A DNA stretch of 64,000 bases from Rhodocaloribacter litoris. GTDB lineage: Bacteria; Bacteroidota; Rhodothermia; Rhodothermales; ISCAR-4553. A program made the translations under genes and the position numbers. Positions 4,711 to 60,434 of this stretch are shown one piece after another. Under the pieces are notes generated by a model, which was not told the DNA's origin, did no database searches, and saw nothing but the letters and a program-made list of their open reading frames with translations. The DNA lies in NCBI RefSeq assembly GCF_011682235.2, contig NZ_CP076718.1, forward strand, positions 3,582,400-3,646,399, written 5' to 3'. Numbering within the stretch: the first letter of the stretch is position 1; each line of letters starts with the position of its first letter.

Positions 4711-6636
4711 ATGCAGGAATGGCTACAGGCAGCCGGGGATCTCGGCGGCCGGGGGGACGTGCTGCGATGGGGGATGGAGCTGGCCGTCCGGTCGGTGCTG
4801 GTGCTGGGGCTGGCCTGGGGGACGGCGGCGGTGCTGCGCCACCGTGCCGCTGCGCTCCGGCATCTGGTGTGGGCGACGGCGTTCATCGGCCTGCTCGTAT
4901 TGCCGGTGCTCTCCATGGTGTTGCCGGCATGGCACCTGCCCCGGGGGGTGCCGGCGACCCCGTCCGCGGTTTTCGTCATGCCGGGAAGCGTTTCGAGGGC
5001 GTCGACCGGGGCCGTGGACCGGCTGTTGTCGGCGGCGCCGGTCGACGCCGCCGCGTTGCTTTCGGTGCCGGGGGCGCCGGCCGGCCCATGGGAGAACGGT
5101 AGGCCGGGAAGCCCGCAGCGGGGGTGGCCCACACCGGTCCCATGGCTCCTGGCGGGATGGCTGGGGGGGCTGCTGCTCGTGTTCGGGCGCTTCGGGGCGG
5201 GCTGGCTGGCGGCCCGCCGCCTCACCCGCCGGGCCCGTCCGGTGAGCGCGGCGGCCTGGCAGCACGAGCTCGACGAGGTACGGCGCCGGCTCCGGCTTCG
5301 ACGCCGCGTGTGCCTGCTTCAGAGTCCCTTCACGGCGATGCCGGTGACCTGGGGGGTGTGGCGACCGGTGGTGTTGCTGCCCGACGGGGCCGAAACCTGG
5401 AGCGCCGGCCGCCGGCATTGTGTACTGGTGCATGAACTGGCCCACGTCCGGCGCTTCGACTGCCTGACACAGGCCCTCGCCGGCCTGGCCTGTGCGCTCT
5501 ACTGGTTCAACCCGCTGGTCTGGATCGCCGCCGGACGGCTCCGCCGGGAGCAGGAGCAAGCCTGCGACGACGTGGTGCTCGTCGCCGGCACACGGCCTTC
5601 CTCCTATGCCGTGCACCTCGTCGAGATCGCCCGGGCCTACCGGTGCCTGCGGCCGGCGCCGGCCGGTGCGGCCTGGATGGCGCGGCCGTCTCGTCTCGAA
5701 ACACGCATCCGCGCGATCCTCGATCCACGTCCGGGCCGGGTCGTGAGACGCCGCACGGGCACGCTCACCGTCGTGGCGGCGCTCCTGGTGCTGATCCCGC
5801 TGGCGGCTTTTACCCCCTGGGAAAACAGCGCGCCAGGGTCGCCGCCCGCAACGACGGCGGACAACTACCCGGTCGTCCGGGCGTCGGAAGCACCTCCGGC
5901 ACCCGAACGCCCGGTTCCTCCGGTTGCTCCCGTACCCCCGAAGACCCCCGCCGTGCCGGTATCGCCCGTCGCTCCGGTGTTGCCCGCCGCGCCGGTATCG
6001 CCTGCTGCCCCGGATGAGGGCAAAGGGTTCGGTCACGTAGGCAATCCTTCACCTGCTGCGCCGCCCGACCCTGTCCGGGCGCCGGTGAAACCGAACGGCA
6101 TCGTGGGCGGGGAACGCGGGCGCCCCGTCGATTCCGGCACCTCTGCGCACGGGTACGCCGGGCCGGAGCCGGATCGTTTGAGGGCGTTCGAGGCGGCAAG
6201 CAAACGCCTGAAGGCGTTCGATCCGGATGGTTCGACGTGGTCGGAGGAGGAACAGGAACGCCTGGAGGAGGAGCTCGAGGCGGCGATGGAACGCCTGGAG
6301 GAGGAACTCGAAGCGGCGATGGAACGCCTGGAGGAGGAGCTCGAAGCCGCCTTCGAAGCCGAAGTCGTGGATCTCGGTGAGATAGCGGTACGGGTCGAGG
6401 CCGGTGTGACGGAGGCGCTCGCCGCCGAGCGGGCGTACCAGGTCGTCCGGAATCTGCTGAATACCCCGGCGGGAGCCTATCTGTCCGCAGACGACACCGC
6501 TATTCCGGTCCTGATTCGCATCGCGGAAGAAGAACCACATACGGCGGCCGGGCAGCGTGCCCTTGAGTTGCTCTCCCGGAGCGACGACGAGCGGGCCCGG
6601 CGGGCCGTTGAGCGGTTGTGCCCGCAGGAGGAATAG
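4711..6636 (+). CDS. BlaR1-like M56-family membrane metallopeptidase with a coiled-coil C-terminus
   Basis: 641 residues. Hydrophobic segments near residues 20-75 and 145-175 precede the M56 zinc site HELAH at 241-245, with the third-ligand region REQEQACDD at about 279-287. Another membrane segment lies near residue 355. The sensor region is unusual: after a Pro/Ala/Val-rich stretch (about 385-435) there is an acidic coiled coil containing three copies of an 11-residue unit, then an alpha-helical tail. No penicillin-binding SxxK/SxN/KTG domain is visible, so it is probably not a beta-lactam sensor. By family analogy it cleaves the upstream BlaI-type repressor after sensing an envelope signal. 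It is convergent with the Sco gene, 7 bases apart. Confidence 0.85.
   Translation: MQEWLQAAGDLGGRGDVLRWGMELAVRSVLVLGLAWGTAAVLRHRAAALRHLVWATAFIGLLVLPVLSMVLPAWHLPRGVPATPSAVFVMPGSVSRASTGAVDRLLSAAPVDAAALLSVPGAPAGPWENGRPGSPQRGWPTPVPWLLAGWLGGLLLVFGRFGAGWLAARRLTRRARPVSAAAWQHELDEVRRRLRLRRRVCLLQSPFTAMPVTWGVWRPVVLLPDGAETWSAGRRHCVLVHELAHVRRFDCLTQALAGLACALYWFNPLVWIAAGRLRREQEQACDDVVLVAGTRPSSYAVHLVEIARAYRCLRPAPAGAAWMARPSRLETRIRAILDPRPGRVVRRRTGTLTVVAALLVLIPLAAFTPWENSAPGSPPATTADNYPVVRASEAPPAPERPVPPVAPVPPKTPAVPVSPVAPVLPAAPVSPAAPDEGKGFGHVGNPSPAAPPDPVRAPVKPNGIVGGERGRPVDSGTSAHGYAGPEPDRLRAFEAASKRLKAFDPDGSTWSEEEQERLEEELEAAMERLEEELEAAMERLEEELEAAFEAEVVDLGEIAVRVEAGVTEALAAERAYQVVRNLLNTPAGAYLSADDTAIPVLIRIAEEEPHTAAGQRALELLSRSDDERARRAVERLCPQEE
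6256..6354 (+). repeat. Three 33-bp tandem repeats coding a coiled-coil heptad-like unit
   Basis: Units at 6256-6288, 6289-6321 and 6322-6354 begin GAACGCCTGGAGGAGGA. Each encodes ERLEEELEAA plus one residue. Differences are mainly synonymous, indicating recent tandem duplication inside the BlaR1-like gene. Confidence 0.9.
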
Positions 6637-51234: not shown

Positions 51235-52035
51235 TCAGAGAGCAGGCTTGCGCAGGGCGCCCCCGGAGAAGAAACCGGGCAACAGCGCCTCGGGCCGGGA
51301 CGAAGCCGGAGGGGCGGCGCCGCGGTCCATCCAAAGCACGAGGGCGGGGGCCTGTTCCGTTAAGAGTTGACGACAGGCGCCGCAGGGGGTGCCGTCCGGG
51401 TCGCGGAGGCAGGAGAGGTAGAGGGTGTGCAGCTTCGTCAGGCCATACGTGACGGCCGTGCCGAGGGCGTTGCGTTCGGCGCAGAGGATCCGCGCCCAGT
51501 CTTCGTGCTCGACGTTGACGCCCGGTACGAGCCCCTCGGCGGTTTCGAGCACGCAGCCGACGGGGAAGTTGGAGGCCGGGACGTGGGCGCGACGGGCCAC
51601 CTCGCGGGCCAGGCGGAGGCCTGCGCCGGGATCATCGGGCCGCTCGACGTCGAGGAAGGGGGAGAGCAGGCCGGCGGGGGCGGGAAGCGGGCCGGTGCCC
51701 GGCCGGACGAAGGCGTCCGGCCCGGCGGGGGTGAACGTCCCGGCGGGGGTCGCCGTCATGAAGGCCGCCTCGCCGGCGTCGGAGGCGTGGCTGAGGACGG
51801 CCGCCACCACGTCGTGCCGTCGGGCGGCCACGGCCGTCGTGAAGGCGTTCAGCAGGGCGGGGATCGTCAAGGAGAATGATGCGCTCTCGACGCGCACCCC
51901 CGGCACGAGCCGGCCGTCCTCGAGCAGGAGTACTGCGCCCGCCGGGCGGTTCGAGTAGGGTACGTGCGACCGGGCGGCCGCCTGCCGGGCCTGCCGGCGA
52001 AGCACCTCCAGCACCGAAGACGGAATGTTCTTCAT
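51235..52035 (-). CDS. Two-domain cytidine deaminase with an inactive-looking N-terminal half
   Basis: 266 residues. The second half is a complete cytidine deaminase domain: ASNFPVGCVLETAEG, NVEHEDWARILCAERNALG with zinc ligand Cys and catalytic Glu, and DGTPCGACRQLLTE with the other two Cys. This three-Cys pattern is the tetrameric type. The first half starts like the same fold (ARSHVPYSNRPAGAVLLLEDG and GVRVESASFSLTIPALLNAF) but lacks the CAE and PCxxC motifs. E. coli Cdd has the opposite order, catalytic domain first. The product should deaminate cytidine/deoxycytidine for pyrimidine salvage. The start codon is 6 bases from a solitary CRISPR repeat on the same transcriptional strand. Confidence 0.88.
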   Translation of the reverse strand: MKNIPSSVLEVLRRQARQAAARSHVPYSNRPAGAVLLLEDGRLVPGVRVESASFSLTIPALLNAFTTAVAARRHDVVAAVLSHASDAGEAAFMTATPAGTFTPAGPDAFVRPGTGPLPAPAGLLSPFLDVERPDDPGAGLRLAREVARRAHVPASNFPVGCVLETAEGLVPGVNVEHEDWARILCAERNALGTAVTYGLTKLHTLYLSCLRDPDGTPCGACRQLLTEQAPALVLWMDRGAAPPASSRPEALLPGFFSGGALRKPAL

Positions 52036-52041
52036 AATATT

Positions 52042-52175
52042 ATTTCAACCCTCATCCGCCCCGGAGGGCGGATGCGATGCGCCGCCGGCACAGGGCGGGG
52101 CCTCCCACAAAACCCCGCATGGCGCTCCGGGCAAGGCCCGTGCTACGGCCGGGAGAATATCACCGTGTCACCTGT
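52042..52175 (-). repeat. Leader-like segment plus solitary CRISPR repeat (copy A), abutting the cytidine deaminase start
   Basis: The repeat at 52042-52078 differs from the array consensus at two positions (52049 and the last base 52078). On its 5' side in minus-strand direction is a 97-bp segment (52079-52175) that recurs next to repeat B, differing there by one substitution and a 3-bp insertion. No spacer follows the repeat: six bases later comes the cytidine deaminase ATG. The order segment-repeat is that of a CRISPR leader and its first repeat, so I interpret the segment as a duplicated leader. Confidence 0.7.
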
Positions 52176-52295
52176 TCCGACGGCTCGCTAGCACTACTTG
52201 CGTCGAGGTCCGAGGTTTCTCGTGCCACACCTGGATCGCCGATTGGCCGCACCTCGTTGGCTACACAATCGACGATGCTGAGAGGCAAGCGCTGT
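52176..52295. other. Gene-free spacer between the two leader-repeat units
   Basis: 120 bases with no recognised gene, repeat or terminator. Open frames crossing it are short or run through the CRISPR repeats and lack coding character. Confidence 0.5.
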
Positions 52296-52478
52296 CAGAG
52301 GGGGGATGCGATCCGTGGTGACGTCGCAACGGTATCGCCGCATTTCAATCCTCATCCGCCCCGGAGGGCGGATGCGATGCGCCGCCGGCACAGGGCGGGG
52401 CCTCCCACAAAACCCCGCATAGCGCTCCGGGCAAGGCCGCCCGTGCTACGGCCGGGAGAATATCACCGTGTCACCTGT
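52296..52478 (-). CRISPR. Mini-array: leader-like segment, repeat B, one 29-nt spacer-like sequence and a degenerate repeat
   Basis: Read on the minus strand: a 100-bp leader-like segment (52478-52379), then repeat B (52378-52342, one mismatch at its first base), then 29 nt (52341-52313). Next comes a partial repeat matching only the GTCGCATCC-side half (about 52312-52296). It resembles a one-spacer array with a decayed terminal repeat. The 29-nt element is shorter than the 35-38 nt spacers of the main array. Confidence 0.6.
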
Positions 52479-52526
52479 GCTTTTGGCGGCGCTTCCGTTG
52501 TACCTGCTGGCGACGGCGCGGTTTCT

Positions 52527-52927
52527 GTGCCTATGTGCATCCGCCCCGAAGGGCGGATGCGACGTGCGCTCGTCCGGCAGCCTGATCTCCTGCTGCACGT
52601 CATTTCAATCCTCATCCGCCCCGGAGGGCGGATGCGACTGCTCATGGCGTGTTCTCCATGCCGGGTTGGTCGAATTTCAATCCTCATCCGCCCCGGAGGG
52701 CGGATGCGACGTGGCTGGCCTGTATCTCGGGGCCATCAGCAGCCTATTTCAATCCTCATCCGCCCCGGAGGGCGGATGCGACTGCTCATGGCGTGTTCTC
52801 CATGCCGGGTTGGTCGAATTTCAATCCTCATCCGCCCCGGAGGGCGGATGCGACCAGACGCGGCGCAGCTACGACGACGCCGCCATACGCATTTCAATCC
52901 TCATCCGCCCCGGAGGGCGGATGCGAC
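52527..52927 (-). CRISPR. Type I-C CRISPR array: five perfect 37-bp repeats, one degenerate terminal repeat, five spacers
   Basis: Perfect repeats at 52602-52638, 52674-52710, 52746-52782, 52818-52854 and 52891-52927. On the plus strand they begin ATTTCAATCC and end GGATGCGAC. The reverse complement runs GTCGC...ATTGAAAT, the type I-C form, so the array is transcribed on the minus strand like the cas genes. The repeat has an internal 9-bp stem (CATCCGCCC/GGGCGGATG). Spacers are 38, 35, 35, 35 and 36 nt from low to high coordinate. The spacers at 52639-52673 and 52783-52817 are identical. The repeat at 52527-52563 has lost its ATTGAAAT end, as terminal repeats often do. The high-coordinate (leader) end joins the cas4 stub with no leader between. 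The 48 bases at 52479-52526 hold nothing recognised. Confidence 0.95.
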
Positions 52928-53145
52928 TCGACCCGCGCGTGCGCCCGTCGGCCGCGCAGCGTGAAGACGTTCTCGCTCCAGACCTGCTCGACGTGGATGA
53001 GGGCGCACTGGCGCGGGCAGTACACGTAGTGCTGGAGCGCCGAGATGGGCACCAGCTCGGTCTCGTCCCAGACCGGCGCCTCGTCCCAGACCGGCCCCGG
53101 ATCCGAACCGGATCGGGCATCGTTCAGGTGGTTGCCATCCGTCAT
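52894..53145 (-). pseudogene. cas4: cas4, N-terminal fragment ending inside a CRISPR repeat
   Basis: 83 codons from the ATG at 53145. The text ELVPISALQHYVYCPRQC, then ALIHVEQVWSENVFTLRGRR and AHARV is the conserved start of Cas4, including the first iron-sulfur cysteines (CPRQC). Cas4 homology stops after about 50 residues, precisely at the repeat starting at 52927. The frame continues through the repeat (ESHPPSGADED) and stops at TGA within its ATTGAAAT end. The RecB-type nuclease core and the C-terminal cysteine cluster are missing, and no cas1 or cas2 follows. Two 18-bp tandem copies at 53063-53098 duplicate VWDEAP/GP near the start. Functionally it must be dead for adaptation. Confidence 0.85.
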
Positions 53146-53161: not shown

Positions 53162-53395
53162 ATGGTTTCTATCAGGAAGCGCGTGCGGGTACAGCCCGGC
53201 GGGGTCGTGTCTGTGCAGGATGCTTCGCTGCCGGAAGGTGCCGAAGCGGAGGTCATCGTCCGGCTCGGAGATACCGCGGAAGCAGAGCCTCCCCCGCTGC
53301 CGCTGGCCGGTATCGTTGGGAGCGGGCCGAGGTTGTTCGCAAGCCCTGAACAGATCGATCAGCACCTCCGAACCCTCCGCGACGAATGGGATTGA
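53162..53395 (+). CDS. Antitoxin-like protein paired with VapC
   Basis: 77 residues from the ATG at 53162, with the strand opposite to the cas genes. The N-terminus (MVSIRKRVRVQPGGVVSVQD) and EAEVIVRLGD suggest a short beta-rich DNA-binding antitoxin of AbrB/MazE kind, followed by a C-terminal stretch LFASPEQIDQHLRTLRDEWD that could wrap the toxin. The stop overlaps the toxin start by 10 bases, the usual antitoxin-toxin coupling. It starts only 16 bases from the divergent cas4 stub, so both share a very short promoter region containing an A10 run. The antitoxin family assignment rests mainly on context. Confidence 0.7.
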   Translation: MVSIRKRVRVQPGGVVSVQDASLPEGAEAEVIVRLGDTAEAEPPPLPLAGIVGSGPRLFASPEQIDQHLRTLRDEWD

Positions 53396-53829
53396 TCGAC
53401 GATCTGATCGGTCGCCGTGTGTACCTCGATGCCAACGTGTTCATCTATGCCGTAGAAGGACACGAGCCGTTCCAGGGGTTGCTTGGTAGGCTGTTCGGTG
53501 AGGTCGCGCACCAGGCCCTTCTGGCCTTCACCAGTGAACTGACACTGGCTGAAGTGTTGGTATGGCCTTTTCGTGAAGCCAGGGTGGATCTTGCAAGGCA
53601 CTACCGTTCGGTTGTTCAGACACACGAAGGCCTGACGGTTGTGCCGATCACGCGCTCGGTTCTCGTCGAAGCAGCCCGGCTTCGCGCCGCGACCATGCTC
53701 AAACTGCCCGATGCCATTCACGTGGCGACAGCCTTGCAGGCGGACTGCGAGGTGTTTCTCACCAACGACGCACGCCTACAGGGCCCCCCGGGCCTCGAGG
53801 TTATGCGGCTCGCTGACGCGCTGCCGTAG
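53386..53829 (+). CDS. VapC-like PIN-domain toxin
   Basis: 147 residues. PIN-domain acidic residues appear as YLDANVFIYAVEG, SELTLAEVLVWPF, LKLPDAIHVATAL and VFLTNDARL. This four-acid layout belongs to VapC ribonucleases, which cut tRNA or rRNA when released from the antitoxin. Translation is coupled to the antitoxin gene through an overlap. The stop is 3 bases from the convergent cas7 stop, so the pair is wedged tightly between cas7 and the cas4 stub. The specific RNA target is unknown. Confidence 0.88.
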   Translation: MGLIDDLIGRRVYLDANVFIYAVEGHEPFQGLLGRLFGEVAHQALLAFTSELTLAEVLVWPFREARVDLARHYRSVVQTHEGLTVVPITRSVLVEAARLRAATMLKLPDAIHVATALQADCEVFLTNDARLQGPPGLEVMRLADALP

Positions 53830-53832
53830 GCC

Positions 53833-54741
53833 TCACCCCACGAGTCGCGTCAGCGTCACGCCGGCCGGCAGGTTGTCCTCGTCGACGAGTACCTCGTAAT
53901 CGCTGAAGGCACGCGGGACGTCCACGCCATCCCGCTTCCGGGGGCGGATGCGGTCGAGGAGCGTGTGCGCCGGGGCGTTGCCGAGCCGGTTTTCGTGGGA
54001 GAAGACGTACAGGCCCCGGAGCGCCGTCAGGCCCCGCGAGGCGGAGCGGTCCAGGTCCCAGCACATCGTCAGCGCCTGCCAGAAGAGCGCCAGGTCGTCC
54101 GCATCGAAGCCGGTCTGCGCGGCCAGCATCGGGTTGTAGAAGCCGAAGCCCAGGTACAGGCCGTAGGGCACGATGGCCTTGCGGCCCATCTCGGTCTGCT
54201 TGCCGCGGGCTGTGGCGCCGTCGTCCGTCTCCACGAGCTGCACCGCGTCTTCCGGGCGCGTCACGGCCACGCGCGTGATCGAGAGATCCATCGGGACGAT
54301 GGGGTCCACGGAGCGGGCGAACGTCAGTTGGAGCGGCCCCCGCACCTGCCCGCAGTTGACGCCGGTGGTCATCACCGCGCCGAACGTGCGCACGTCGTAG
54401 AAATTGGCGCACATCCACGTGCGCGCCTTGTCGATGGTGGCGAGGTCCTGCTTGGCCCCGGTCGATTCCAGGTCGAGCGCCTGGTAGGCCCTTTCGTGCT
54501 GGTTGTTGAGCACGCCCAGGCGTTCGACGTAAATCTTGTATCGTTCCTCCGTGCCGCGCGAGGCGTCCACGAAGTCGCGGATCTTGCGCTTGATGCAGAC
54601 ATCGGTGACGAGGCCCTGCATGGTTTCGGGGTCCACGCGGGGCAGGTTGCCGGCGTCCGGGTCGCCGTTGGGGTTGCCGTCGGTCACGTCAAAGAGGAAA
54701 GCGAAGTCGTGGCGGCGCTGAGGGTCGAGGTGTGCGTTCAT
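53833..54741 (-). CDS. cas7: Type I-C Cas7 (Csd2) backbone subunit
   Basis: 302 residues from the ATG at 54741. Csd2/Cas7 hallmarks: RRHDFAFLFDVTDGNPNGDP, GLVTDVCIKRKIRDFV, YDVRTFGAVMTTG, GQVRGPLQLTFARSVDPI, KAIVPYGLYLGFGFYNP, and a C-terminal Csd2-type tail. Several copies coat the crRNA spacer to form the Cascade backbone. It is the last intact cas gene of the operon, 86 bases after cas8c. The vapC stop is 3 bases beyond its stop. No defects were seen. Confidence 0.95.
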   Translation of the reverse strand: MNAHLDPQRRHDFAFLFDVTDGNPNGDPDAGNLPRVDPETMQGLVTDVCIKRKIRDFVDASRGTEERYKIYVERLGVLNNQHERAYQALDLESTGAKQDLATIDKARTWMCANFYDVRTFGAVMTTGVNCGQVRGPLQLTFARSVDPIVPMDLSITRVAVTRPEDAVQLVETDDGATARGKQTEMGRKAIVPYGLYLGFGFYNPMLAAQTGFDADDLALFWQALTMCWDLDRSASRGLTALRGLYVFSHENRLGNAPAHTLLDRIRPRKRDGVDVPRAFSDYEVLVDEDNLPAGVTLTRLVG

Positions 54742-54827
54742 GGTGCTCAGGGTGTTTGCTGGGTGAAAAAAGGGAAAGAATGGGGGCATGGTTGGCGTGC
54801 CGACCGGGCGGGCCGTGCCGGCGCAGG

Positions 54828-56531
54828 TCAGTCGCCGGCTGCCTCCGCGGTCGCCTCGGCCGGTTCATCGCCGTCCGTCTTGCGGGGGCGGTGCTTCTGC
54901 TGGTAGAAGCCGATGGCGAAGAGGCCCTGTTCTTCGAGGGAGAGCGTGCGCGGGAAGCCATCGAGGTGGCTCATGATCTCGCCGAGCATCTGCTCGAAGT
55001 GGTGGTGCAGGCCGGGCTTTTCCTTGCGGAGCTTGCCCAGGTGGGCCTGAGCCTTGCGCAGGAGCACGCCGAAGACGCTGGCGGGCGTGGCGGAGGCCGA
55101 GCCGTAGAAGCGGTCCACGAGGGTGGCTTTGGGGCTGATGGCGTTGCGCTGGATGTCGTCCAGCACGGCGAGCAGGCGACCGCACTGGTAAGCGGCGCTC
55201 GGTTGGTCCGGGGTGAGGGCTTCGTGTACCATGCGTTCCTCCGATAGGTCAGGTTGGGATAGCAGGACGAGTTTGATGAGGGCGGCGCGGGGGCGTGTCA
55301 TGGCGTGCTCGCCGTCGGTGCGGGCCCGCTGGACGGCCCGGTGCAGGAGCGAGAGTGGGAGCGGCCGGCCGGTGAGGGCGTGCTCCAGGAGCAGCGGCAC
55401 GACCTGCGGAGGCAGCTTATCCCAATCAGGTCGTCCCTTTTTGATTGGGACCAGGGATGCGGCCAAGTTTTCTAGCTTGAGCGGCGGCGAGAGCCCGCGG
55501 TGGTTGAGGATGCGCTGGTGCTCGAAGTAGCGGGCCAGGTGGTGCTGTACCTCGTCCACGGTCATCGTCAGCCAGCTACGCACCACCATGCGCTTGTTCG
55601 ATGTGACGGCCAGCGCGTAGAAGTCGTTCGCGCGGACGGTCCCCGGCAGTGTGCCGGACTGCGGGGCGCGCAGTAGCCCCCGGACCTGCTCCTCGTCCGG
55701 GTCGGTGAAGAGCTTCATCACGTCGAAGTCGGTTGCCTCACGGGTCCAGAAGATCCAGTGCAGCCCGCCGAGGGACAGGTGATGTTTCGGGCTCTTGAGC
55801 AGGTAGGCGAGCGCCTCGCCGTACATCCGCGCGCACCGCTGGCACATCGGCGCGATCTCCGACCGGCTCAGGCCGTACGACTCGAAGGCATCCTTGTTGG
55901 CCGAGACGAGCGGGGCGGCGTCCGGCCCCACGCGTACATCCACCGGATGCACCTGGACAATCGGTTTCTCCTCGCCGCACAGCATGCACCGGGCGGTGAG
56001 GGTGCTGTCCTCGGCGGCGCGTTCGTCCTCGTGGTTCTGCCACCAGGCCTGCACCTCCGGCAGGTCTGTCAGGAACGTCTCCCCGACGCGGGGCGCGATG
56101 AGGTCGCCGGGTTTCATCTCCGCCGTCGCCGGGTGCGCCCGTGCCGCCTCGATCTCCTCGTCGAGGAAGCGGAGGAAGGCGTCCGTCGCCGGGTGGTGTA
56201 CGGACAGCGCGCACGCCTCGGCGAGCCGGCGGTACGCCGTGTGGCGCTCGTCCGCCTGCGCCCGTGCCTTCTCCGTGTCGGCATCGGGCCGCCCGAGGAC
56301 GTACGACGGCTTGTCCACGAAGAGCAGCGCCCGTGTCCCGGAGGTACGCTTCAGGGTGGGCGCGACGATCTCCACGTAATCCTCCTTGCCCGTCTCGGCC
56401 CGTTCGATGTTCAGAAAACGGCCGTCCTCGTCGAGGGCAAGGATCCACGGGACACGCTGTTTTTTGTGGTAGGCCGGAACCAGTTCACCGGCCAGGCGCG
56501 CGTGCAGGTCGCGAAGTCGTTCGAGGATCAT
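54828..56531 (-). CDS. cas8c: Type I-C Cas8c (Csd1) large subunit
   Basis: 567 residues. The N-terminal half begins LERLRDLHARLAGELVPAYH and continues PWILALDEDGRFLNIERAE, as in Csd1. CMLCGEEKPIVQVHP with a later MCQRCARMYGEAL gives the Cys pairs common to this family. The C-terminal helical region ends EQGLFAIGFYQQKHRPRK. Cas8c recognises the PAM and helps recruit Cas3 to the target DNA; an internal start can encode Cas11c in type I-C. The gene starts 12 bases after cas5c. The last 20 residues are Glu/Ala-rich. The frame is intact. Confidence 0.94.
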   Translation of the reverse strand: MILERLRDLHARLAGELVPAYHKKQRVPWILALDEDGRFLNIERAETGKEDYVEIVAPTLKRTSGTRALLFVDKPSYVLGRPDADTEKARAQADERHTAYRRLAEACALSVHHPATDAFLRFLDEEIEAARAHPATAEMKPGDLIAPRVGETFLTDLPEVQAWWQNHEDERAAEDSTLTARCMLCGEEKPIVQVHPVDVRVGPDAAPLVSANKDAFESYGLSRSEIAPMCQRCARMYGEALAYLLKSPKHHLSLGGLHWIFWTREATDFDVMKLFTDPDEEQVRGLLRAPQSGTLPGTVRANDFYALAVTSNKRMVVRSWLTMTVDEVQHHLARYFEHQRILNHRGLSPPLKLENLAASLVPIKKGRPDWDKLPPQVVPLLLEHALTGRPLPLSLLHRAVQRARTDGEHAMTRPRAALIKLVLLSQPDLSEERMVHEALTPDQPSAAYQCGRLLAVLDDIQRNAISPKATLVDRFYGSASATPASVFGVLLRKAQAHLGKLRKEKPGLHHHFEQMLGEIMSHLDGFPRTLSLEEQGLFAIGFYQQKHRPRKTDGDEPAEATAEAAGD

Positions 56532-56543
56532 GAGGGCCTCCGT

Positions 56544-57191
56544 TCAACGTGGATCGTACAGTTCCTGCGGGACGTGGAGCACGCCGCGTTCGAGGCGGGC
56601 GCGGAAAAACAAGGGGTGGCCGCGTCCGTCGTCGCCGTAGCGAAGGTCGAAGAGCATGCGCCCGAGGTCCTCGGTGCGGTCGATGGGCTGCTCCGTGCCG
56701 TCGGGCTCTGCGAAGCCGGCGCTGAACTCGCGGCAGCCCAGGTAGGGGTGGTGGAAGCATTGCCCGCGGGCGACGCGGCGGCGGAACTGGTCGCGGTACT
56801 TGGCCGGGTGCGCGTCGCCCGTGCGGGTGCGCAGGTGCACGTCGGCCTCGATGAGGTAAGCCACATCGCGGAGGGCGAGCGTGTGCCGCTGGGTGCGGTC
56901 GAGGTCGGTGAAGTAGCCGCCGCCGCTCTCGGCCCAGCCTTTCGCCGCGCGCTCGGAGGCCTTCGTGTTGACCTCGTTGCGGAGCAGGGAGATGCGGCGG
57001 ATGGGCCGGAGGACGTGGATGCACTGCACGCGCCATTCAAACTCGGGCTTCCAGAAGATGGCCTCCAGGATGCCGCGCGCGGCCGAGGGGGTCATCACGT
57101 CGTACGTCACGCGCTCGACCTTCATCTCTGGGCGGGTGAAGCAGGCGTATTCGCCCCAGACCTTCACGCGGACCGGTGTGTAATCGGGCAT
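56544..57191 (-). CDS. cas5c: Type I-C Cas5 (Cas5d), crRNA-processing subunit
   Basis: 215 residues. It begins TPVRVKVWGEYACFTRPEMK and continues VERVTYDVMTPSAARGILEA, a clear Cas5 RAMP start, then IFWKPEFEWRVQCIHVLRPI. In type I-C, Cas5 replaces Cas6 and cleaves the repeat RNA, leaving an 11-nt 5' handle, and stays bound to the handle in Cascade. The absence of cas6 is therefore normal. It sits 25 bases after cas3 and 12 before cas8c, so it is in the same transcript. The catalytic Tyr/Lys/His set was not resolved by eye. Confidence 0.94.
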   Translation of the reverse strand: MPDYTPVRVKVWGEYACFTRPEMKVERVTYDVMTPSAARGILEAIFWKPEFEWRVQCIHVLRPIRRISLLRNEVNTKASERAAKGWAESGGGYFTDLDRTQRHTLALRDVAYLIEADVHLRTRTGDAHPAKYRDQFRRRVARGQCFHHPYLGCREFSAGFAEPDGTEQPIDRTEDLGRMLFDLRYGDDGRGHPLFFRARLERGVLHVPQELYDPR

Positions 57192-57216: not shown

Positions 57217-59399
57217 TTAGATCACGGGGTCGTCGAGGAGCGGAAATTCCATCTGCAGGCCGCGCAGGTCGTCGTAGACGCCGTGCCAGACCCACACGCC
57301 GGGCACCCATTCCTCGCACAGGCGCTGCGCGACGGCCTGTTCGTGGAGGCGGGCGCGCAGGCTCACGAGGAACGGTTGCAATGCCCGGTAGTCTGGCCGG
57401 AAGGCCTGCCCCTGCCGCCGGATGCGGTCGAGCACGGCCTGCCGCACGCCGGGCCGCCCGGGCGGGTCGTAGGGCACCACGACGGGCACCGTGTCGTCCG
57501 GGATGAGCCGGTAGGCCCGGGCAACCTGCTCGAAGTTGAAGGCGGCCCACTTGTCCAGGATGTTTTCCTCGTCGAGCGCCTCGCGCAGATTCCCGTAGAG
57601 CAGGCGGAAATACCTCAGGGGGAGCTCCGGGTCGTCGAGGTCCGGCGGTGGGTCGGTGGCGAGGAGGGTTCGGGTGACGGAGGTGCCGGACTTGTAGGCG
57701 CCGAGGGGGAGCCCACCCTGCTCGGGGTCGAAGATCACCACGCGCCCGGCATCGAGCCGGCCCTCGCGGTTGCAGCGTCCGGCGGCCTGGATGATGCGGT
57801 CGAGCGGGCCGAGGGCGCGGAGGACGAGGGGGAAGTCGAGGTCCACGCCCGCCTCGACCACCTGCGTGGAGATGAGGTGCACAGGCTCGCGCCGGGCCAG
57901 GCGCTGCCGCACGTCCGCGAGCACCACGCGCCGGTGCGCCCCGCAGAGCAGGGTCGAGAGGTGGAGCACGTCCCGCCCGTCCGCTTCGTCCAGCAGCGCC
58001 ATCGCATCCCGGATGGTGTTCAGCACCACCATCGCCTGCGCTTCCTCGAAGAGCGTTGCCGCCACCCGGGGCCACGGCCACGGCGTCTGCACGTCGATCT
58101 CGTACCGGACGCGCCGCAGCCGGTCGAACACCGAGGCCGGGTCGGGCAGGATCTCGCGGACGTTCGGGAGGCCCGGGAAGCCGGGGCGCTCCGCCAGGGC
58201 GGGCTGCGTGGCGGTGCTCAGGACGAGGGTCACGCCGTAGGCCTCCACCAGGTGCGCCAGCGCGTCGAGCGTGGGCCGCAGCAGGCGCGGGGGGAGGGTC
58301 TGCACCTCGTCGAGGATGAGGACGCTTCCGGCGAGGTTGTGCAGCTTGCGGACGCGGGAGTTCCGGTTGGCGAACAGGCTTTCGAGGAGCTGGACGGTCG
58401 TCGTCACGATGATGGGGGCGTCCCAGTTCTCGGCGGCCAGGCGCGCCCGGCGTTCCGACGCCGACTCGGTGCCCGGCGCTTCGCGGCTGTAGGCGGCGCT
58501 GTGGTGTTCGAGCACGGCCTCGTCGCCGAACAGCGCGCGGTACACGTCGGCGTTCTGCTCGATGATGCTCGTGTACGGCAGGGCGACGATCACGCGGCGC
58601 TTGCCGTGGCGGAGGGCGTGCCGCAGGGCGAAGGCCATGGCCGAGCGCGTCTTGCCGGCCCCCGTGGGCGCCGTCAGGGAAAAGATGCCGGGGGCATCGT
58701 GGGCCCGAGCCAGGCACGCGGCATAGACCTCCCGCCGGACTTCGTTGACCGGCCCCGTTTTGCCTTCCATCAGGGCCCGCTGCTGCGTTTCGAACCGGGA
58801 CCAGAGCACGGGCAGGTCCACACGGGCCGTCCGGACGGTGGCCTTCTCCGGCTGGAAATGCTGTTCCGTGTCGAGGCAGTCGGCATCGACCAGGGCGCTG
58901 TGGAGCATGCGGGTCCAGAAGGCCAGCCTTCGCCGGTGGGAGGAGGGGTCGGGTGCCCCGACGAATGCGGGCAGGTCGTCCGGGCCGGGCGTGGGCACCC
59001 GGCCTTCGAGCAGGCGGCGGGCTCGCGCGAGCGCCTCCACGACCCGGGGTTCGCTACGCTTTCTCTCGATCCGCTCCCGCAGGTGTTCCTGGTCCACCAG
59101 GCCGCCGTGGTGTCCGGCCACGTTGAAGGCCAGCGGTGGCAGCACCTCGGCGGCCTCCAGCATTCCCGCGCTGGAGTGGTCGGGGCCGCGGGGCGTGTCG
59201 GTTTCGCCGCGCAGGTAGGCCTGTACGTCGGGCGCGACCTTGCCGGCGTCGTGCCACCTGCCGAGCCAGTCGCCGAAGCCGCGCTGCCGAAGGCGGCGGC
59301 GAACGTCCGGGCGCGGCAGGCCACGCCTTCCAGGTGGTCGAGCAGCGACTGCGGGGTGCCGTCGGGACCGGCCGAATGGGCGATCAGCGTGTCGGGCAT
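57217..59399 (-). pseudogene. cas3: cas3 (HD nuclease/helicase) with a frameshift in the HD domain
   Basis: Two frames make up one Cas3. The first starts at 59399 with PDTLIAHSAGPDGTPQSLLD and HLEGVACRARTFAAAFG. The second, read from about 59280 downwards, supplies RGFGDWLGRWHDAGKVAPDV and DHSSAG, the remaining HD-nuclease motifs, then the helicase: Walker A TAPTGAGKTRSAMA, LILDEVQTLPPRLL and QAAGRCNREGR. The switch near 59275-59283 needs one added base. The local sequence (TTCGGCAGCGCGGC) is not a homopolymer, so it is less likely a sequencing slip than the one in ftsK. The downstream frame could start at the ATG at 59163 but would then lack HDAGK and DHSSAG. Cas3 degrades DNA after Cascade binding. 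Confidence 0.85.
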
Positions 59400-59414: not shown

Positions 59415-60434
59415 TCAGGGGTGACGGGATTCGTCGAGGGTTCCGACGCCGGCATAGAGGGCGGCCATGCGCCGGGCCTCACGGGCGATGCGGTGGCGCA
59501 GCTCCGGCGGTGAGATGACTTCGGCCTCGCCGCCGTAGGAGAGCACCCAGCGGGCCACGTCGGCCAGGCCGGCTACCTCCATGTGGAGGTCCAGACTGCC
59601 ATCCGGGCGCATGAACATCATCTGGCTCTCGTGCCAGCGTTCTTCGCGGATCCAGCGGGCTTGATAGGGAGAGAAACGAATGTGGACGGCGTAGCGACGT
59701 TCGCCCCGGTGCATACCGAAGGCGGGACCCAGGTAGGCGTCCAGGTCGAACGTTGCATCCCGGACGAACACCTCGTTTCGTATTTCGAAGGCTTGTATCC
59801 GGTCGACGCGAAAGTCGCGCATGGCCTGCCGCAGGCGACAGTAGGCGATCAGGTAGCCCCGGCCCTGGTAAGAGAGCAGGTGGTAGGGTTCCACGTCACG
59901 CTCGGTTTCCTGGCCCCGGCTGTTCGAATAGTAGCGCATCCGAACGACGCGCTGGCTTGCAATGGCTTCCGAAAGGGCCTCCAGGTAGGGCAACGGGGTG
60001 GCCGGTCCCGGCCCGCGTTCGAAGCGGATCGTACGCGAGAGCGTCTCCGGCTCGACGCGGATCGTTTCGGGCAGGTGATCGGACAGGCGCTCCATCACCC
60101 GTTCGAGCAGATCGGCATGCGCGGTGTCTCCCAGGGCGTCCAGGGCATGGCGGGCCACGAGAAAGGCGGCGAACTCGGTGCGAGTCAGGGACAGGATCGG
60201 CAGGTTGCCGAAAGGCTCCGTCAGCACGTAGGACCGTTTCCGTCGGTCAAAGGTCAGCGGGACCCCGATCTGCCGCAGGTATTCGAGATCGCTGGCAATG
60301 GTGCGGGAGGATACTTCGAACGCTTCGGCGGCCAGAGCCTGGGTCAGACGACGACCCGTGCGAAGCCATTCGAGCAGTTTCTGAAGTCGCCAGAGTTGTG
60401 GTCCCGATGGGGAGGAGCGGGGAACCCTTGGCAT
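59415..60434 (-). CDS. WYL-domain transcriptional regulator at the head of the cas operon
   Basis: 339 residues from the ATG at 60434. The N-terminal helix-turn-helix is DeoR-like (WLRTGRRLTQALAAEAFEVS, then SRTIASDLEYLRQIGVPLTF). The WYL core follows (RVVRMRYYSNSRGQETERDV and YLIAYCRLRQAMRDFRVDRI), then a WCX-type C-terminal extension (VHIRFSPYQARWIREERW). WYL regulators sense ligands, perhaps nucleic-acid fragments, and several control CRISPR-Cas expression. Its stop lies 15 bases before cas3, so it is probably co-transcribed and may autoregulate the operon from the 274-base upstream gap. It is intact, unlike cas3 and cas4. Confidence 0.9.
   Translation of the reverse strand: MPRVPRSSPSGPQLWRLQKLLEWLRTGRRLTQALAAEAFEVSSRTIASDLEYLRQIGVPLTFDRRKRSYVLTEPFGNLPILSLTRTEFAAFLVARHALDALGDTAHADLLERVMERLSDHLPETIRVEPETLSRTIRFERGPGPATPLPYLEALSEAIASQRVVRMRYYSNSRGQETERDVEPYHLLSYQGRGYLIAYCRLRQAMRDFRVDRIQAFEIRNEVFVRDATFDLDAYLGPAFGMHRGERRYAVHIRFSPYQARWIREERWHESQMMFMRPDGSLDLHMEVAGLADVARWVLSYGGEAEVISPPELRHRIAREARRMAALYAGVGTLDESRHP

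Follow-up and report, generated by a model that had tools for sequence, protein, structure and literature searches.

Gene content around cdd

The window analysed here, that is, the whole stretch of 64,000 nucleotides from Rhodocaloribacter litoris to which positions refer unless stated otherwise, carries on its minus strand the gene cdd (51235-52035), which encodes a two-domain cytidine deaminase and is followed 21 bp downstream by a Na/Ca exchanger gene. The order of cdd, the exchanger gene and the next gene is preserved with respect to relatives, and the start of cdd agrees with the starts in those relatives. On the same strand, the cdd ATG at 52035 is preceded by a 6-bp gap, AATATT (52036-52041), and this in turn by a unit (52042-52175) composed of a 37-bp type I-C CRISPR repeat and a 97-bp segment, so that the minus-strand order is segment (52175-52079), repeat (52078-52042), gap and start codon. 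The preliminary description of this DNA had placed such a unit 6 bp before the cdd start, with the segment preceding the repeat and no spacer following it, and its order and coordinates are borne out. The repeat agrees with the array consensus, GTCGCATCCGCCCTCCGGGGCGGATGAGGATTGAAAT, at 35 of 37 positions; it deviates only at positions 1 (G>A) and 30 (A>G), the second of which is the single change in its handle, and the hairpin is intact. Since the best match to it in the rest of the window, outside the I-C locus, reaches only 22/37, its presence is not attributable to chance.

The unit had also been called solitary, a term that calls for some qualification, as a second copy of repeat and segment lies at 52342-52478 and a short array at 52602-52927, both on the minus strand. 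In the second copy, the repeat (52342-52378) matches the consensus at 36 of 37 positions and the segment (52379-52478) differs from the first copy by one mismatch and a 3-nt insertion. The two units are separated by a unique stretch of 166 bp (52176-52341), which contains a 17-nt repeat-like fragment at 52296-52312 and for which a search of 114 genomes of the order returned nothing but short matches at chance level. Beyond the second segment, the flank continues on the minus strand from 52479 to 52526 and reaches a degenerate last array repeat that has lost its 3' handle (52527-52563), followed by the remaining array of five perfect repeats. The Rfam family CRISPR-DR9 matches these five repeats and both repeats of the duplicated units on the minus strand, with scores below the gathering threshold. 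One 35-nt spacer is present twice in the short array, at 52639-52673 and 52783-52817, and a search with two array spacers against viral contigs returned no exact matches.

The remaining cas genes are likewise on the minus strand and comprise the 5' part of a truncated cas4, broken off at the first repeat (52928-53145), cas7c (53833-54789), cas8c (54828-56531), cas5c, which encodes the I-C pre-crRNA endonuclease (56544-57191), and an open frame of cas3 (57217-59163). The combination of cas3, cas5c, cas8c and cas7c with I-C repeats ending in GGATTGAAAT assigns the locus to type I-C. As regards adaptation, cas1, cas2 and a leader are absent, the truncated cas4 being directly followed by the array; elsewhere in the R. 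litoris genome, Cas1 matches occur at distances of about 0.95 and 2.3 Mb. The I-C system would be unable to acquire spacers with its own module, and its interference is probably impaired. Two further large CRISPR arrays are present elsewhere in the genome, one at G000:C1 2672000-2690000 (L064) with the repeat GTTTCAATACCTAAAAGGTGCGATTAAAAG and the other at G000:C1 1326000-1340000 (L065) with the I-E-like repeat CCTATCCCCACGCCCGTGGGGGTGAACCG.

The homologous locus in Roseithermus sacchariphilus

An intact I-C locus, about 96% identical to that of R. litoris, is found in Roseithermus sacchariphilus (CP030158.1, hereafter G008), which belongs to a different family of the same order. It consists of cas3-5-8-7, a gene pair on the plus strand, cas4-cas1-cas2, a 164-bp leader, 40 perfect repeats, a degenerate terminal repeat and the 97-bp segment; cas1 and cas2 were called by profile, and cas4 by its position and by the similarity of its N-terminus to the fragment in the window. 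Homology between both loci is continuous from 52928 through cas7, cas8, cas5 and cas3 into a WYL gene (to about 60224), and it breaks at 52928, inside cas4 and exactly at a repeat. Relative to G008, R. litoris lacks cas1, cas2, the remainder of cas4, the leader and the part of the array next to it, which leaves its own array leaderless with five repeats, and the G008 leader sequence is absent from the window. In addition, a frameshift of one base in the HD domain (about 59270) shortens the cas3 frame.

The cas7, cas8, cas5 and cas3 genes share 95-96% DNA identity between these members of different families, whereas the host cdd proteins are just 58% identical, which indicates that the I-C locus has moved horizontally. 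The dN/dS values between the two species are low (0.05 for cas7 and 0.11 for cas5) and mostly reflect shared history. Two parts of the module diverge more. A PIN-domain gene and a small partner lie on the plus strand between cas7 and cas4 (53163-53829); G008 likewise carries plus-strand sequence there, with a DNA identity of 62-71% as against about 95% in the flanking cas genes, which would fit an exchange of the pair or its rapid evolution. Similarly, the WYL regulator gene (59430-60224) shows about 59-63% identity over much of its length between loci that are otherwise about 96% identical.

The comparison with G008 bears directly on the nature of the segment before cdd, which had been taken for leader-like. 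The first copy is identical at 97 of 97 positions to L058 5124-5220 of G008, where it lies past the degenerate last repeat, with the true leader some 3 kb away in the interval from cas2 to the first repeat. This position identifies the segment as the leader-distal flank of the I-C array. It does not stand upstream of a leader-proximal repeat beside cas1 and cas2, and a local alignment of the segment with the G008 leader revealed no similarity (score 11.0, against a shuffled mean of 10.7). The same arrangement is preserved in the window, in which 52379-52526 follows the degenerate terminal repeat at 52527-52563 on the transcribed strand just as, in G008, 5124-5268 follows the homologous degenerate repeat at 5269-5305 (L058), the last part of this trailer (52479-52526) being about 88% identical between the species. 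Read in this way, the unit beside cdd (repeat and 97-bp flank) is the duplicate of a trailer unit that has been doubled in the R. litoris genome.

Other explanations for the segment as such were discarded. It is not a dispersed genomic repeat, as just two of the 114 genomes of the order have it, both at their I-C loci, and it is found nowhere else in the R. litoris genome; in wider databases, GTDB genomes gave one exact 22-mer match, plasmids no more than a weak partial one, and viral contigs none. Nor does its perfect conservation require special constraint, because exact runs are common along the aligned module, with fifteen of 80-191 nt. A structured RNA within the 97 bp was likewise rejected, as neither strand folds in excess of shuffled sequences (z about 0); the repeat hairpin probably accounts for the modest value of z = -1.9 obtained with repeat and segment together.

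The site where this locus resides can be deduced from the relatives. In 12 of the 29 cdd loci of relatives that were checked, a divergent tRNA-Leu(TAA) gene lies 38-189 bp upstream of cdd, and in one more at 1,173 bp. In R. litoris, the tRNA-Leu(TAA) gene (G000:C1:3646929-3647015) is still divergent and about 12.5 kb from cdd, and the intervening stretch of about 12.4 kb holds the I-C locus, a multicopper oxidase gene and an apparent amidohydrolase gene, the latter called by reading the sequence. The native upstream region of cdd has been displaced. The simplest reading is that DNA was inserted between the tRNA gene and cdd, at once or stepwise, which left the I-C trailer end abutting cdd and replaced all but a few bases of the former upstream sequence.

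Taken together, these comparisons of sequence and position point to 52042-52175 as the trailer end, distal to the leader, of a type I-C CRISPR-Cas locus that arrived by horizontal transfer, was inserted between tRNA-Leu(TAA) and cdd at the expense of the native cdd upstream sequence and has since decayed, with its trailer unit duplicated, and as neither a leader nor an element placed there as a promoter; we give this reading a probability of roughly 0.87. In the course of events that it proposes, the I-C locus would have landed with its trailer end against cdd, and later decay would have removed the leader, cas1, cas2 and most of cas4 and frameshifted cas3. Against it, the trailer identity relies on a single intact homologous locus, that is, on one comparison together with the orientation of the repeats, the degenerate one included; the repeat that bounds the segment on its far side in G008 is itself decayed; and neither the origin of the 166-bp stretch nor that of the trailer duplication is explained by it.

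Expression of cdd and rival readings of the repeat

With the native upstream sequence replaced, cdd would probably be transcribed either by minus-strand read-through from the cas genes, across the cas4 fragment, the array and the trailer, or from a promoter within 300 bp upstream. The minus strand from cas7 to cdd showed no terminator-like (intrinsic) site, and read-through into cdd is therefore possible. The repeat hairpin would be a passive part of any such mRNA; more precisely, a cdd mRNA starting upstream of 52078 would include the intact I-C repeat hairpin.

The earlier proposal was that a CRISPR leader-repeat unit may have been captured as the promoter of cdd, and that Cas5c could then process the cdd leader and so tie nucleotide salvage to CRISPR RNA processing. 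The unchanged hairpin 6 bp from the cdd ATG, the intact Cas5c with permitted residues at its catalytic positions and the displacement of the native upstream region are all in its favor. Its premise that a leader brings a promoter does not apply, though, because the segment is a trailer, and the true leader has been deleted from the R. litoris genome. A minus-strand search upstream of cdd for promoters of the sigma-70 and Bacteroidota types gave no match, a weak negative given how insensitive such scans are: the true G008 leader scored nothing either, and the Bacteroidota-type motif also found nothing upstream of cdd in relatives. Moreover, the arrangement is known from one genome only, so that neither its conservation nor selection on it can be assessed, and no sequence evidence for selection or use of the cdd-side repeat was found. 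We regard the captured promoter as very improbable. By contrast, a more modest possibility deserves some weight, although it remains unlikely: the insertion would be passive but with a side effect, in that cdd would owe its expression to read-through or to a promoter in 52079-52341, and a cut by Cas5c after the hairpin would leave a 17-nt 5' UTR (AGGGUUGAAAUAAUAUU). It has been established that type I-C Cas5 cuts pre-crRNA 11 nt before the spacer, i.e., 11 nt before the 3' end of the repeat (PMC5965380; PMC3727216), which favors this course, as do the lack of an intrinsic terminator on the minus strand from the cas genes to cdd and the fact that the genome has its own cas5c. The window Cas5c aligns with solved Cas5c chains, and F46, K131 and Y132 fall at the positions taken as catalytic, of which the lysine is invariant while phenylalanine and tyrosine are natural replacements (PMC3727216). 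With these allowed substitutions, and with an intact hairpin followed by an 11-nt 3' handle bearing one change, the R. litoris enzyme looks competent to cut the cdd-side hairpin. The leaderless array and the frameshifted cas3, which suggest a decaying locus, and the altered handle (A30G) speak against such a side effect. The A30G change was also considered as an attenuator; it shifts the pairing of an AGGG run and leaves the overall energy unchanged. Less probable again is that the cdd operon, which serves nucleotide salvage, depends on a CRISPR RNA-processing enzyme, its transcription running through the trailer repeat and Cas5c cleavage there setting its 5' end and its expression.

A regulatory function of a different kind, in which the trailer repeats yield guide-like or decoy RNA in the manner of CreTA or of solitary repeat (Racr) units, also seems highly doubtful. 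Ectopic repeats with regulatory or decoy roles have been described, including a type I-C Racr (PMC9458426, PMC10651486), and R. litoris does have two extra repeats outside its array and a PIN-domain, toxin-like gene about 1.1 kb away. On the other hand, its repeats are hardly degenerate, unlike CreA repeats, and the unit lies near other repeats in a chromosomal cas locus rather than in a phage or plasmid. A mini-array guide against a target in the window was sought among the sequences that follow both trailer repeats; since their TTC-adjacent matches in the window are no better than those of shuffled controls, a CreTA-like guide function (PMC9458426) is unsupported, and there is no support for a Racr-like decoy role (PMC10651486) either. 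The trailer-end reading accounts for the adjacency of the hairpin to cdd by the place where the transferred locus landed. What the preliminary description had singled out is thus a real feature under the wrong label, and mostly an ordinary relic.

Relation to known repeat systems

The assignment of the unit to a trailer corrects a leader call that would imply a false promoter, and it illustrates that an intact processing hairpin can remain directly before a housekeeping operon when a CRISPR locus decays. If the hairpin were indeed cut in the cdd mRNA, a CRISPR processing enzyme would be at work on the transcript of a metabolic gene in a natural setting, something for which a small search of the literature returned no precedent among Cas processing enzymes. 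Engineered control of mRNA by Cas proteins and their repeats does exist (PMC10115826): the translational switches of the CARTRIDGE and Csy4 systems resemble the situation at cdd in that translation can be controlled through a repeat hairpin placed in an mRNA and the Cas enzyme that processes it, but they are synthetic and operate in mammalian cells, whereas a natural equivalent at cdd is hypothetical. Racr and other solitary repeat units, RacrIC1 among them, share with it a lone I-C repeat hairpin near a gene; they differ in that they reside in phages and plasmids without nearby repeats, while the R. litoris unit forms the terminal part of a CRISPR locus on the chromosome. CreTA is similar in having repeats outside the array near cas genes, and differs in that the R. 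litoris repeats are scarcely decayed, with no target complementarity found in the window and no CreT-like RNA identified. The closest counterpart is the type I-C array trailer of R. sacchariphilus (CP030158.1), which has the same repeat and cas genes and the same 97-bp flank after a degenerate last repeat; in R. litoris, this flank and its repeat are duplicated and abut cdd, at the end of an array that has lost its leader, cas1, cas2 and most of cas4.
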